A stretch of 64,000 bases of DNA from Myxococcales bacterium (GTDB taxonomy: Bacteria > Myxococcota_A > Polyangia > Polyangiales > Houyiibacteriaceae): NCBI GenBank assembly GCA_029861865.1, contig JAOTYL010000003.1, positions 124,001 to 188,000 of the forward strand. The letters are read 5' to 3'. The position numbers and the translations under genes were made by a program. Shown in pieces: positions 26,512-41,009 of the stretch (the first letter of the stretch is position 1; the number at the start of each line of letters is the position of its first letter). The notes below the pieces were generated by a model. That model ran no database searches and had not been told where the DNA came from. It was given only the letters and a program-made list of their open reading frames with translations.

Positions 26512-26639
26512 GGTGTCGTTCGAACTCCCTCGGAGGGCTCTTACAGCAGCTTGCGCGACCGTCCAAGGCTCAACGAGGTGGTTCGATGCGTGGCGACGTT
26601 GCGGTTTTTCCCGTGCGCCGATACCGTCGTCCCTCGAAG

Positions 26640-28346
26640 ATGGCAAGGGCATCTGACTTTTTCGACGCGTTCGAGCGGGCCGCGGCTGCGAAGCCCGAGG
26701 CAGCAACACTCCCCGATGCCGTGTTCCGATTCGAGCTTAGTGGAGACGCCGGGGGCACTTGGACGCTCGACCTTCGAAAAGGCACGACGTCCGGGTTCGT
26801 CACCCGGGAGAACGGCCCAGAAGCCGGCGCAACGATCCACGTGACCTCTGACGACTGGGTTGCGCTGACGACCGGCCAAATGAACCCGATGCGCGCCTTC
26901 ATGGGCGGGAAGATCCGCGTGGACGGCGACCTAAAGCTCGCGGTCAACCTTCCGAATGTCGTGAACATGGTCGAAGGCTACGGCATCAACGTCGAAAATC
27001 CCGTCTCGGCGGCCGTGGCGCGAGCGCGAGGGGTGGCGTCCGCGCTCTTTGCCGCACGGCCCTCTGTGGATCCGATGCCGCCTCATGTCGGTGGGGTCGT
27101 GCCCTGGGTCAGCGCGGGCCGCGCGCTCATTCACGATCCCACTGCGTTCTTCACTCGCTGCCGAGAACGCTTTGGAGATACCTTCGTCGTCGACGCGTTT
27201 GGCTACCGCTTGTTCTGCGTCTTCTCGCCCTTGGGCGTAAGCAGTTTGTGGAGGCTGCCGGAAGAACAGGCGAGCAAAGCCCTCGCCGACCTCACATTGC
27301 TGAGCCACAAAGTGCCGATCGAGCTGTTCGAAGGTCGCCGGACGTTGCCCCATGACCTCTTTGCGCGAGACGATGTCGAGGTATATCTCGAAAACCTCCG
27401 CAATGCCGTCGCACTCGAGCTCAGCCACCTCGGGAACGGGGGGTCGATCGAGCTCTTTACGTTCACGAAGCGACTCGCGCACCGCATGGGCCTTGCAAGT
27501 TGGGGCGGCATGACTGCGCTCTCCGACGCGGAGCTCGACACGCTCGTCGCGCACTTCGAGCAGCTCGATGCATCGGAATCGTTCGTGCATCCTCACAAAG
27601 CCATATTCGCGATGGCGACGCGAAAGCGCCGCGAACGGCGCGCGATGAGGGCGATCGAAGAGATCTTCAGCGAGGCACTCACGACTCGCCCCGAGCTTGG
27701 CGGCAACGACCTGTTCTCACGCATCTGTGCGTCCTGGGAGGGCGTGCCGAGCCCTGACCGCGAAATCGGGATCGCGCACGACGTCATCGTCGTCCACATG
27801 GGCTCACAATCGAACCTCTTCGCGGCCATGGCCTGGACGTTGGTATACGCACTTCGAGATCCCTCGTTGGTGGAGCAGATTCGTCAGGGCGACGACAGCA
27901 GTCTCGACTCGTTCAGCCACGAGGCGATTCGCATGAGCCAACGTTCGATCGTCCTTCGGCGAATCGTCAGCCCGATCGAGCTCTCCGACGAGCGCCGGAC
28001 TTATCGATTGGCGCCAGGGATCCTCGTAACCACCATGCTGTCGGTCACCAACCGCTCTGCAGCTCCGGGGCTCGACCACTTCGATGCGAACAACTACCGG
28101 GGCGCAACCTTCCTTCGAACCAGCGAGCTCCCGGCACGCGAGCTCGTCACGACCTACGGTCACGGCAAGCACACCTGCCCTGCGCATCGCTTTTCCACCT
28201 CGGCGATCCGCCACGCTACGTGCGAGCTGTTTAGGCGCTTCGACCTGACTCCGCGTTTCGACCACCCGCTCCCCCTTCGGCGGCAGATCGGAGGCGTCGC
28301 ACGCGCGGACCGCCCCTGCGAGATCGTCTACAAAGCACGGATATGA
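26640..28346 (+). CDS. SCP2 sterol-carrier domain fused to a CYP7/CYP8-like cytochrome P450
   Basis: The 568-residue chain has two domains. Residues about 5-110 are SCP2-like (TLPDAVFRFELSGDAGGTWT ... WVALTTGQMNPMRAFMGGKI then RVDGDLKLAVNLP), a hydrophobic-ligand carrier fold. Residues about 145-565 are a P450. Proline-rich PPHVGGVVPWVSAGRAL and AFFTRCRERFGD open it, E428-x-x-R431 (HEAIRM) is the K-helix pair, and YGHGKHTC513PAHRF is the haem-thiolate loop. The I-helix reads MGSQSN392, without the acid-Thr pair of most P450s but like the SQAN region of CYP7/CYP8 enzymes. A soluble sterol or fatty-acid oxygenase (or isomerase) with its own substrate carrier is inferred. It shares a 128-bp divergent promoter region with lnt. 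Confidence 0.85.
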   Translation: MARASDFFDAFERAAAAKPEAATLPDAVFRFELSGDAGGTWTLDLRKGTTSGFVTRENGPEAGATIHVTSDDWVALTTGQMNPMRAFMGGKIRVDGDLKLAVNLPNVVNMVEGYGINVENPVSAAVARARGVASALFAARPSVDPMPPHVGGVVPWVSAGRALIHDPTAFFTRCRERFGDTFVVDAFGYRLFCVFSPLGVSSLWRLPEEQASKALADLTLLSHKVPIELFEGRRTLPHDLFARDDVEVYLENLRNAVALELSHLGNGGSIELFTFTKRLAHRMGLASWGGMTALSDAELDTLVAHFEQLDASESFVHPHKAIFAMATRKRRERRAMRAIEEIFSEALTTRPELGGNDLFSRICASWEGVPSPDREIGIAHDVIVVHMGSQSNLFAAMAWTLVYALRDPSLVEQIRQGDDSSLDSFSHEAIRMSQRSIVLRRIVSPIELSDERRTYRLAPGILVTTMLSVTNRSAAPGLDHFDANNYRGATFLRTSELPARELVTTYGHGKHTCPAHRFSTSAIRHATCELFRRFDLTPRFDHPLPLRRQIGGVARADRPCEIVYKARI

Positions 28347-28545: not shown

Positions 28546-28974
28546 ATGGCAACAATACACAGAATCGTAAGCATCAAGGCTCCGGTGAGCCAGGTCTTCG
28601 CATATCTCGAGGATCCGAGGAATGATGTAGAGTGGCTTCCGGGAGTGATTGAAACTACGGATGTGACCGGCTCGGGTGAGGGGCAGCATCATCGCTGGAA
28701 GTACAAGATGGTAGGCGTGCCGCTCAGCGGAGAGACTACGGTTGTCGAATATGTGCCGAACAAACGCCTAGTGTTGCAAAGCAAGGGTGGCGGCGAGAGC
28801 ACTTGGACTTTCCTTTATGAGCCCAAGGATGGCGGTACAACGCTCAACCTAAGCATCGACTACACCATCCCCGTTCCGGTGCTCGGCAAGCTGGCTGAGA
28901 AGCTGGTACTCAGGCGGAACGAGCGCGAAATGGACTTGGCGATGGAGAACATCCGAGAGCGCTTGGAGGCCTGA
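28546..28974 (+). CDS. SRPBCC-family protein
   Basis: The 142-residue protein begins IHRIVSIKAPVSQVFAYLEDPRNDVEWLPG, an archetypal SRPBCC/CoxG-like first strand and helix ('I.aPv..VF.yl.dp.n...W.pg'). Strands YKMVGVPLSGETTVVEYVPN and WTFLYEPKDGGTTLNLSIDY follow, and the long C-terminal helix ends MDLAMENIRERLEA. It is a probable hydrophobic-ligand binder. It lies 200 bp after the SCP2-P450 gene in the same direction and could bind a related lipid, though cotranscription is not shown. Confidence 0.8.
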   Translation: MATIHRIVSIKAPVSQVFAYLEDPRNDVEWLPGVIETTDVTGSGEGQHHRWKYKMVGVPLSGETTVVEYVPNKRLVLQSKGGGESTWTFLYEPKDGGTTLNLSIDYTIPVPVLGKLAEKLVLRRNEREMDLAMENIRERLEA

Positions 28975-37259: not shown

Positions 37260-37450
37260 TCGATTGCCTCGGCGTGGTGCCCGGCTTCCAAGGGCGCGAG
37301 CCACTTGTACACGACCATGCGCTGCCACGCGAGACCGACCAGGCTCGCGGATGCGAGCTTGATCACATCGAAGAGCGCGACGGCTTCGCGGTCCGAAGGA
37401 ATCGGCACGAACCCAATGGCCTCAAAGCTGGGTTCCGCTATCCTTGCGCC

Positions 37451-38434
37451 ATGCGTTTGCTCCTATTGGCGGCGGCCTTTTGCGTGTCTCTCCCCGCCTG
37501 CGGAGGTACGAACGGCAGCACAGGTGGTTCTGGTGGCGCGCCAGGCGCGGGCGGCACGGCGGGCGAAGGCGGCTCGGGCGGCCTAGCGGGCGAAGGCGGT
37601 TCAGGTGGCTCTGCAGGTGCCGGCGGCACGGCGGGCGCAACTGGTGCCGGCGGTACTGCGGGCGCAGGTGGTGCGGGTGGTACCGCGGGCGCAGGTGGTG
37701 CGGGTGGTACCGCGGGCGCAGGTGGCACGGGCGGTGCCGCGGGCGCAGGTGGCACGGGCGGCAACGCGGGTGCAGGTGGCACGGGCGGCAACGCGGGTGT
37801 TGGCGGTGCAGCGGGCGCAGGTGGCACTGGTGGACAAGGAGGCGACGCTGGCCCACTCCCAGACCTCACGGCGACCGTGTCGAATGTCTATATAGCGCTC
37901 GACACGACAGTTTCGGCTGCCGACCTGCTCGAAGGATGCGCCTCGGCCAGCAGCGGCATCGATCTCGTACGATTCTCGGGGACTACCAACAACCTTGGTC
38001 CTGCAGACGTAGTGGTCGGAGATCCCGGCTGCCCCAACTGCGAGCGGAATCCATTGGCGGTGTGCGACAACCCGAACTTCATCTGCGCACCCGCCGAGGG
38101 CCACGGCCACGGTCACTATCAGAACTTCGCCTCGTATGAGCTCCTCGACGAGACCGGTCAAAACGTGGTTGCACAGGGTCACAAGCAGGGGTTCTGCCTG
38201 CGAGACACCAATTGCACCTTCGGATCACCGACATTCAGTTGCCACTTCCAAGGTTTGACCGCCGGTTGTTCGGATGTGTACAGCCATACTCTCGGGTGCC
38301 AGTACATCGAGATCACCGACGTGCCTGGGGGCGACTACTTGGTGCGGATGACGAGCGACCCCCTAAATCTTTTCGAGGAAGCCAACGAGACGAACAACTC
38401 GCATTCCGTCCCCGTTACGATTCCGTCCCGATGA
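37451..38434 (+). CDS. Lipoprotein with Gly-rich stalk and lysyl oxidase domain (copy 1)
   Basis: The 327-residue protein has a lipoprotein signal (LLLLAAAFCVSLPAC). It then has about 115 residues of Gly/Ala/Thr-rich 9-residue repeats, then a lysyl oxidase (LOX) domain from LPDL (about residue 137). Copper ligands correspond to H218-G-H220-G-H222. K245 (GHK245QGFCLRD) and Y277 (GCSDVY277) align with the human LOX Lys320 and Tyr355 that form the lysine tyrosylquinone cofactor. Conserved Cys (FCLRDTNC, GCQYIEITDV) and ETNNSHSVPV near the end also match. Animal LOX oxidises lysine side chains to aldehydes for collagen cross-linking; the bacterial substrate is unknown. A second copy follows 223 bp later. 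Confidence 0.85.
   Translation: MRLLLLAAAFCVSLPACGGTNGSTGGSGGAPGAGGTAGEGGSGGLAGEGGSGGSAGAGGTAGATGAGGTAGAGGAGGTAGAGGAGGTAGAGGTGGAAGAGGTGGNAGAGGTGGNAGVGGAAGAGGTGGQGGDAGPLPDLTATVSNVYIALDTTVSAADLLEGCASASSGIDLVRFSGTTNNLGPADVVVGDPGCPNCERNPLAVCDNPNFICAPAEGHGHGHYQNFASYELLDETGQNVVAQGHKQGFCLRDTNCTFGSPTFSCHFQGLTAGCSDVYSHTLGCQYIEITDVPGGDYLVRMTSDPLNLFEEANETNNSHSVPVTIPSR
37540..37850 (+). repeat. 27-bp tandem repeats coding a Gly-rich stalk
   Basis: The segment inside the first lysyl oxidase gene encodes degenerate 9-residue units (GTAGAGGAG, GTAGAGGTG, GNAGAGGTG). At least six consecutive units are recognisable between about 37650 and 37810, with near-identical DNA. Such stalks are common in Myxococcota lipoproteins and may vary in length by slippage. 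Confidence 0.75.
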
Positions 38435-38657
38435 GGTCCGCATTAGCAGGGGGGGCATCTCGATGGTGCTTGCCCAGGCCCGCGTGATCTAACGATTTTT
38501 TTGATCGACTCTCCGTTAGGCAGCTCACAATTTCGTGCTGCCCTTGCGCCTCACACACCGCCTGTCCTGCTTTCCCCATTTCGTGTTAACGTCGTGACTC
38601 GCACGCGCCGACGAGCGGGTGAGCCCCAACAGCGATGTGTGTCGCAAGGAGGTCAAC

Positions 38658-41009
38658 ATGATTCGTCGAGATCGAGCACTGTTCAGGTTTGCGGTGCCCC
38701 TCAGCATCGTGGTGGTCACCATGGCTTCGGGCGTTGGACACAGCCATGCTCAGCCACCCGGAGTGCTTTCGATCCCAGCCGAGGGCGGGGTCGTTGCCGG
38801 CTCTACCAGCGGCTCGAGTAACTATAGCGCGAGTTGCGGCACCGGAAGCGTGCGTGCGCCTGAGCAGGTTTTCGAATGGATCCCCGATGTATCCGGGACG
38901 GTCACCATGGAAACCTGCGGCCCGAACACCGCCTTCGACACCGTGCTGTATGCTCGGAGTGGAAGCCTTTCAGGTTCGGGGCTCGCGTGTTCGGATGACG
39001 TGAGTGGCTGCGCGGTCAACAGCGGATCACGCAACTCGGGGCGACACGGATCGAGGATCAGCTTCGACGTCACCGCTGGACAAAAGTACTACATATTCGT
39101 CGACGGCTACGAACCCTCGTCCGGTGCGTCGGAGGGGGACTTCGAGCTCACGGTTACTCCACCTTTGGCATCGTCCTGCGGTGACGGAGTCGTGAATGGA
39201 TCCGAACAATGTGACGGCCCGGATGCCTCGGCTTGCTCTACGGGCCAATGTTACGATCCAGATTCAACCTCGGGGCAGCCATGCACGTGCGTGCCACCGA
39301 CTTCGTCGTCGAACATCCCGCCGCCTGGCGGCATCGTCAGTGGTTTCACGAGTGGAGCCAGCTTTGAGAGCGGATCATGTGGAGCGGGCAGCGTGAACGC
39401 GCCCGAGCAGGTTTTCTCTTGGACACCCGATTTCAGCGGGCAGGCGACGATCGAAACATGTAGCTTCATCACGGAGTTCGACACCGTCGTGTACGTTCGC
39501 CAAGACAGTCCGACGGGCAGTGAGATCGCTTGCGATGACGATACTCCGGGTTGCGCCGTCAGTAGCGGTTCAGCCAACTCGAGTCGTCATGGCTCCCGCG
39601 TGTCGGTCACTGTGACCGCAGGGGAGACCTATTACGTGTTCGTGGACGGATACAGCCCGTCGTCGGGGACGTCTGAAGGTGCCTTCGAACTGGCCGTGAC
39701 ACAGTCCGGAAGCGGCGGCGGCGGCGATTTGCCGGACCTCGCGTCGCTTGTGTCAGATGTCCAGATACGGCTCGACACGACCGTTCCGGCCGCTGACCTA
39801 CTCGAAGGCTGCGCCTCGGCTCAGAGCGGCGTCGATCTTGTGCGATTCGCAGGAACGACGATCAACCTCGGTCCAGCCGACCTCGTCGTTGGAAATCCTG
39901 GCTGCCCAGACTGCGAGGACAACCCTTTGGCAGTGTGCGCCAACCCGAACTTCATATGCGCACCAGCCGACGGCCATGGGCACGGTCACTATCAGAACTT
40001 CGCCGCCTATGAGCTGCTCGACGAGACCGCGCAAAACGTGGTCGCGGTGGGTCACAAGCAGGGATTCTGCTTGCGAGACACATCCTGCACGTTCGGTTCG
40101 CCTACATACGACTGCACATTTCAGGGCCTGACCGCCGGTTGTTCGGACCTTTATTGGGCTTCTCTCGGGTGCCAATACATCGACATCACGAACGTACCGG
40201 GGGGCAACTACTTTGTACGGATGACAGCCGACCCGCTAAATCTCTTCGAGGAGGCCGACGAAACGAACAATGCGCACATGGTTCCGGTCACGATTCCGGA
40301 TCGCGGCAACGTCAGGCCTGTCGCGCAACCCGATTCGGCTACGACACCCGAAGACACACCGATCACGATCGACGTATTGTCCAACGATAGCGATCCCGAC
40401 GGGTTCCTGGATCCCGCGTCTGTCAATGTCGCCGTCGGCGCTTCGAATGGGTCCACGTCGGTGAGCTCGAGCGATGGAATGATCACCTACACTCCGAATC
40501 CCAGCTTTTCTGGTGGGGACGCCTTTACCTATGAAGTATCGGACAATGAGGGAAGCACGGACGCAGCGGTTGTGACGATCACGGTTGGCACCAGCAGTGA
40601 GCCCCAGATCCCTCCGGGAGGTGGTGTGGTGGCCGGGTTTACCAGCGGAACCAGTAGTCACAGCGGAACCTGCGCTTCAGCTAGCGGACGCGCTCCTGAG
40701 CAGGTCTTCACTTGGGTACCGGACGTATCAGGGACGGCGACACTCGAAACCTGCGGTCTCAATACCGAGTTCGATACAGTGCTCTACGTGCGGGACGGCG
40801 GCATTGCCGGAACCGAGCTGGGTTGTTCGGACGACGTCAACGGATGCGGCGTGAGCAGCGGCTCGAGCAACTCGGGGCGTCACGGGTCACGCGTGGTCTT
40901 CAACGTGGTGGCTGGTCAAACGTATTACGTCATCGTCGACGCGTATCGACCATCCTCCGGAGCGTCGGAAGGCAACTTCGAACTGACGGTGATTCCTGCG
41001 GCGCCCTGA
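38658..41009 (+). CDS. Secreted multidomain protein with lysyl oxidase domain (copy 2)
   Basis: This is a 783-residue exported protein. ATG 38658 follows AAGGAGG by 5 bp, and the signal peptide ends near SHAQPPG. Order: PPC-like beta domain (about 35-160), a Cys-rich link (CGDGVVNGSEQCDGPDASAC), a second PPC-like domain (about 215-345), and the LOX domain (about 360-555). A cadherin/Big_9-like module (PDSATTPEDTPITIDVLSND, about 560-650) and a third PPC-like domain follow. LOX residues: H440-G-H442-G-H444, K467 (GHK467QGFCLRD) and Y499 (GCSDLY499). The PPC units share NSGRHGSR and TYY.(I/V)FVDGY-type strands. The LOX core is close to that of the upstream gene, so the pair arose by duplication. 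Its 3' end is 2 bp from the convergent sulfatase-like gene. Confidence 0.87.
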   Translation: MIRRDRALFRFAVPLSIVVVTMASGVGHSHAQPPGVLSIPAEGGVVAGSTSGSSNYSASCGTGSVRAPEQVFEWIPDVSGTVTMETCGPNTAFDTVLYARSGSLSGSGLACSDDVSGCAVNSGSRNSGRHGSRISFDVTAGQKYYIFVDGYEPSSGASEGDFELTVTPPLASSCGDGVVNGSEQCDGPDASACSTGQCYDPDSTSGQPCTCVPPTSSSNIPPPGGIVSGFTSGASFESGSCGAGSVNAPEQVFSWTPDFSGQATIETCSFITEFDTVVYVRQDSPTGSEIACDDDTPGCAVSSGSANSSRHGSRVSVTVTAGETYYVFVDGYSPSSGTSEGAFELAVTQSGSGGGGDLPDLASLVSDVQIRLDTTVPAADLLEGCASAQSGVDLVRFAGTTINLGPADLVVGNPGCPDCEDNPLAVCANPNFICAPADGHGHGHYQNFAAYELLDETAQNVVAVGHKQGFCLRDTSCTFGSPTYDCTFQGLTAGCSDLYWASLGCQYIDITNVPGGNYFVRMTADPLNLFEEADETNNAHMVPVTIPDRGNVRPVAQPDSATTPEDTPITIDVLSNDSDPDGFLDPASVNVAVGASNGSTSVSSSDGMITYTPNPSFSGGDAFTYEVSDNEGSTDAAVVTITVGTSSEPQIPPGGGVVAGFTSGTSSHSGTCASASGRAPEQVFTWVPDVSGTATLETCGLNTEFDTVLYVRDGGIAGTELGCSDDVNGCGVSSGSSNSGRHGSRVVFNVVAGQTYYVIVDAYRPSSGASEGNFELTVIPAAP

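Follow-up and report, generated by a model that had tools for sequence, protein, structure and literature searches.

A myxobacterial gene joins an SCP2 domain to a divergent cytochrome P450 near CYP7/CYP8

A single gene found in a genus of uncultured myxobacteria encodes an N-terminal SCP2 domain followed by a divergent cytochrome P450. It was identified in the window, that is, the whole stretch of 64,000 nucleotides that was analysed. The favoured reading, to which a probability of roughly 0.55 is given, is that its product is a tethered lipid-loading monooxygenase served by external redox partners. Re-reading of the sequence, together with the start Met shared by relatives (an alternative ATG lies at 26586), returned the same coordinates, frame, start and key residues (E428/R431, Cys513, and SQSN392) as the original prediction. 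The features of the gene are as follows.

26640..28346, + strand: SCP2–P450 fusion gene, 568 aa, a single open frame with orthologues in six more genomes of the genus
26673..26960, + strand: SCP2 domain, residues 12–107 (PF02036, E 3.8e-16; AlphaFold pLDDT 85; best PDB folds SCP2)
26964..27053, + strand: linker, residues 109–138, predicted flexible (pLDDT below 50; highly variable in the fused alignment)
27066..28343, + strand: P450 domain, residues 143–568, from the family profile against PDB, the fold match, and standalone orthologues at 40–62% identity
27807..27815, + strand: I-helix Q390-S391-N392 replacing the acid-Thr pair, invariant in 16 of 16 members of alignment A3
27921..27932, + strand: K-helix ExxR, E428–R431, invariant wherever members cover the site
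27957..27959, + strand: R440, nine residues past R431, a spacing of nine as in CYP7/CYP8 and ten in other P450s
28176..28178, + strand: haem-ligand Cys513 in YGHGKHTCPA, invariant in the family

The fusion was found in 7 of the 19 genomes of the genus, namely that of the window (G000) and G002, G005, G006, G007, G011, and G013, of which G005 and G013 are 100% complete. Because it recurs in this way, in independent assemblies, with 72–73% identity between the fused proteins and an alignment unbroken over the SCP2–P450 junction, misassembly or chance fusion was rejected. When 84,980 species genomes were scanned, six fusion loci came up, each from a metagenome bin that carried the label Myxococcales, Polyangiaceae, or Deltaproteobacteria. 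A phage origin was also looked for, with no match. The copy in G007 shows 62–66% identity and carries an in-frame TAG directly after DDVQA (L013:8001–9074, G007:C157), with its C-terminal part on a separate contig; this reflects either decay or an assembly error. No conserved operon could be found around the fused gene. The neighbours in G005 and G013 (abhydrolase, homoserine dehydrogenase, SelO, and GH5) are unlike those in the window, and because the neighbourhood varies between these genomes, it indicates no pathway. Among the examined neighbours of the fusion in the window, no redox-partner gene was seen. A gene with a Polyketide_cyc2/SRPBCC-type lipid-binding fold lies immediately 3' of the fusion (28546–28974, + strand), and two adjacent lysyl-oxidase-domain genes are found at 37274–38434 and 38619–41009 (both + strand), the second with additional bacterial Ig/cadherin-like domains.

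The N-terminal half, for which an SCP2 match within residues 5–110 had been predicted, scored 59.7 bits against PF02036, well above the curated Pfam cut-off of 21.3. SCP2 chains in PDB matched the fusion N terminus at E 4e-10 in a sequence search, and the modelled domain matched SCP2 structures with Foldseek E-values of 7e-8 to 1e-6, the top 28 PDB matches all being SCP2 or SCP2-like. SCP2 domains take sterols, fatty acids, and acyl-CoA as ligands. Apart from the fusion, the genus carries SCP2 as a separate gene in a conserved gene row of its own; the product is about 44–49% identical to the fused domain, which suggests that the latter diverged long ago from a protein of this kind. Frames of about 870–1100 codons, each containing between two and four SCP2-like matches in tandem, were also seen in many genomes of the order (G036:C1, G045:C4, G071:C336, G076:C81, and others).

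The C-terminal half is too divergent to pass the Pfam threshold by itself. Pfam PF00067 gave only 11.2 bits on the fusion protein alone, under the cut-off of 22.8, and the P450 call therefore rests on relatives and fold. All 16 members of alignment A3 matched p450 (E up to 1, best E 5e-12), and the predicted fold over residues 138–568 matched solved P450s over about 400 residues with VIA Z of about 30–32, which bears out the predicted fusion of a P450 to SCP2. The AlphaFold model has a mean pLDDT of 80, with most P450 blocks at 85–95. The haem-Cys loop, YGHGKHTCPA, agrees with the FxxGxxxCxG pattern, except that every family member has Ala in place of the last Gly. ExxR, the haem Cys, and QSN are fixed in members that have diverged to about 50% identity; QSN is nearly invariant across the family, with MSN in its place in the most divergent relative (L087). 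The B–C loop is short, and there is a gap ahead of the PERF region. Judged by sequence and model, the P450 half appears complete though divergent.

When a profile of the P450 family was compared with PDB, the matches ranked in the order CYP51 (2e-24), CYP7A1 (1.3e-13), CYP8B1 (2e-12), CYP170A1 (6e-12), and CYP8A1 (7e-11). By fold, CYP8A1 came top (Z 32.4), together with CYP51, CYP8B1, and CYP7A1 at Z 31–32, scores that lie within about 1 unit and are to be read as ties. Profile and fold thus place sterol, bile-acid, and prostanoid enzymes nearest among the solved P450s. The reference sequences for the phylogenetic trees came from PDB alignments, those of CYP7A1 and CYP102A1 being confirmed residue by residue against the matching PDB chains. 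In these trees, the P450 family grouped with CYP7/8, apart from CYP51 and from every ordinary P450, at a support of 98/94 with 27 rows and 97/88 with 54 rows and L107 added, on long branches of about 2 changes per column. Forcing the family with CYP51 costs 7.3 log-likelihood units at an AU p of 0.089, so that joining CYP51 is not rejected. An ordinary bacterial P450 was rejected by the profile ranking, the fold, and the trees with 27–54 rows, all of which agree with the original prediction on this point. L107 (2643–4223, − strand) is a solitary myxobacterial P450 in which Asn occupies the Thr site of the I-helix (FGAHTN), with a spacing of nine, CPGR, and a long branch; it falls on the branch of the family in the trees that take it in.

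Two traits that do not depend on the trees are also shared with CYP7/8. The acid-Thr pair is missing and the I-helix Thr site is Asn, as had been predicted by comparison with CYP7A1 and CYP8A1, and the alignment extends this to CYP8B1. The spacing from ExxR to the following Arg is nine in all 15 scored family members, in CYP7A1, CYP8B1, CYP8A1, and L107, and ten in all 26 of the other scorable P450s, CYP102A1 being without that Arg. Such sharing could reflect either common ancestry or convergence. The clan 7 enzymes of animals further resemble the fusion P450 in the loss of Pro-Pro and as top structural matches, and CYP7A1 and CYP8B1 also have Cys-Pro in the haem loop. Unlike them, the fusion P450 is bacterial, has a short B–C loop, no evident membrane anchor, and an attached SCP2 domain, and is only 16.2, 17.6, and 17.6% identical to CYP7A1, CYP8B1, and CYP8A1, respectively. 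CYP51, although it is the best profile match and equally similar by fold, has a spacing of ten and two signatures that are absent here, the I-helix reading MGSQSN rather than AG[QH]HT and the B–C motif FG.GV..D being missing; a plain CYP51 identity was rejected on these signatures. A P450 family usually requires about 40% identity or more, and identities of 16–18% therefore point to a new family, neither CYP7 nor CYP8. From sequence and model, we place the P450 half in a new family near CYP7/CYP8, on the CYP51/CYP7/CYP8 side and a member of neither CYP7 nor CYP8, its exact position being tentative. The description of this half as CYP7/CYP8-like in the original prediction thus stands as a resemblance at the level of the clan but not more closely, given the low identity, the equal closeness of CYP51 by profile and fold, and the AU result.

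Unfused orthologues of the P450 half, with 40–62% identity, were found in four other families (f28, f32, f43, and f44) among 379 Myxococcota genomes. Within the otherwise unfused P450 family, all fused proteins fall into one clade (100/100), and the preferred reading is therefore that fusion took place once, within one genus, when a copy of SCP2 would have been joined to a P450 that is free-standing in other Myxococcota. In the 15 neighbourhoods retrieved, no SCP2 gene was seen beside the unfused P450, as a Rosetta-stone pattern would have it. One shared neighbourhood of the unfused gene is of housekeeping type (aspartokinase, dihydroxy-acid dehydratase, and methyltransferase), and such a context in other families gives no pointer to lipid metabolism. 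Two f28 genera have a same-strand row of alpha/beta hydrolase, Rieske ferredoxin, metallo-beta-lactamase-fold hydrolase, MFS_2 carrier, P450, ETF-beta, and ETF-alpha. The Rieske ferredoxin and ETF genes near this unfused P450 fit an electron-driven oxidation, in which the Rieske protein may be the electron donor. The unfused relatives operate without a fused SCP2, so the chemistry itself does not require the carrier.

In the monooxygenase reading, the N-terminal SCP2 would load a hydrophobic cargo (a sterol, some other isoprenoid, or a fatty acyl chain), either out of the membrane or from a second enzyme, and the flexible linker, about 30 residues long, would keep the loaded domain beside the P450. 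The P450 would then oxidize (hydroxylate) the cargo handed over by SCP2, using O2 and electrons, and Ser391-Asn392 would serve in place of the acid-Thr pair, much like the Asn in CYP7A1 and CYP8B1. Separate ferredoxin/reductase proteins are proposed as the source of electrons because no redox domain is attached.

The nature of the cargo bears on the first alternative, in which the enzyme tailors the organism's own sterols with SCP2 as a sterol shuttle. Two features elsewhere in the window genome are relevant here.

G000:C5, about 220.5–227.4 kb (L138:8558–15419), one strand: complete-looking sterol cluster of polyprenyl synthase, oxidosqualene cyclase, HMG-CoA reductase, squalene synthase, and squalene epoxidase
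L005 / L139:7836–9212 (G000:C15): CYP51-like P450 with AGHHTS and FGKGVVYD, adjoining a TetR gene

The cyclase has DCTAE and matches TIGR03463 at E 2e-205, under the cut-off of that model and over that of TIGR01787. The CYP51-like P450 groups in the tree with M. capsulatus CYP51 and L129. Given the cluster and this P450, the organism of the window probably makes sterols, the production of which has been reported in several myxobacteria (PMC4919349). The closest characterized enzymes of the fusion P450 also have sterol substrates, and own sterol is a possible cargo in the window organism. However, the sterol cluster and the fusion gene lie on different contigs, and neither oxidosqualene cyclase nor squalene epoxidase was found in the complete fused genomes G005 and G013; own sterol therefore cannot be the general substrate. 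Within the genus, the cyclase is present in 3 of the 7 genomes that have the fusion and in 2 of the 12 that do not, with no association between the traits (Fisher p = 0.30), and most genomes with unfused members gave no cyclase match. A dedicated role in the organism's own sterol pathway is thus considered unlikely, and the original prediction, which had named a sterol or lipid substrate, overstated the sterol part. A foreign sterol, a quinone/isoprenoid, or a fatty acyl lipid would fit as well as a substrate.

The second alternative is an isomerase or peroxide-using P450 that, like CYP8A1, would need neither O2 nor electrons to rearrange a lipid hydroperoxide or endoperoxide, the SCP2 domain bringing the oxidized lipid. 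It draws on the Ser-Asn at the acid-Thr site, on the top rank of CYP8A1 among the structures, and on the fused gene having no adjacent redox partner. CYP7A1 and CYP8B1 are redox-driven hydroxylases and CYP8A1 is an isomerase. Since all three have the same Asn, this residue cannot decide between hydroxylase and isomerase. The rank of CYP8A1 is likewise offset by the CYP51, CYP8B1, and CYP7A1 structures that score within about 1 Z unit of it, and the Rieske ferredoxin and ETF genes near unfused members of one family argue in the other direction, so that we regard such an activity as quite improbable. A degenerate, non-catalytic P450 fold retained as a lipid-binding or regulatory partner of SCP2 could be seen in the sub-threshold Pfam score, the short B–C loop with the gap ahead of the PERF region, and the in-frame stop in G007, but the fixed haem Cys, ExxR, and QSN across members so diverged and the intact predicted P450 fold make this very unlikely.

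The favoured monooxygenase reading has partial parallels among known systems. The natural P450 fusions that are known mostly carry electron carriers, and the CYP51–ferredoxin of M. capsulatus, a bacterial P450 of the same assemblage that is likewise naturally fused, has such a partner rather than a lipid carrier. MFE-2, SCPx, HSDL2, and the alkyl sulfatases likewise combine an SCP2 or SCP2-like domain with an enzyme for a hydrophobic substrate (PDB 1ikt and 2yhe are among the fold matches). In these proteins as they are known, SCP2 lies at the C terminus, whereas the present fusion has it at the N terminus, ahead of a P450. A further parallel is UbiJ (PDB 6h6o), a bacterial protein whose SCP2 domain has been proposed to bind intermediates by their lipid tail within the Ubi metabolon, three members of which are hydroxylases (PMC9499169); unlike the fusion, it is a separate subunit, its hydroxylases are flavin enzymes, and no P450 is involved. 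In the literature searched, which covered few subscription papers, no description was found of bacterial CYP8-like P450s, of the present P450 family, or of the SCP2–P450 architecture, the last as had been foreseen.

Tentatively, and with more doubt than confidence, the family might be a true bacterial sister of the animal CYP7/CYP8 clan, in which case the Asn and the shortened ExxR region would not have been born in animals from CYP51, and the fused form would be the first P450 in nature to come with its own lipid carrier. The family offers bacterial CYP7/CYP8-type relatives in which the replacement of Thr by Asn can be studied, and it bears on the origin of the clan. A fused lipid carrier would address substrate supply, a common bottleneck of lipid-oxidizing P450s, and may serve as a template for engineering.
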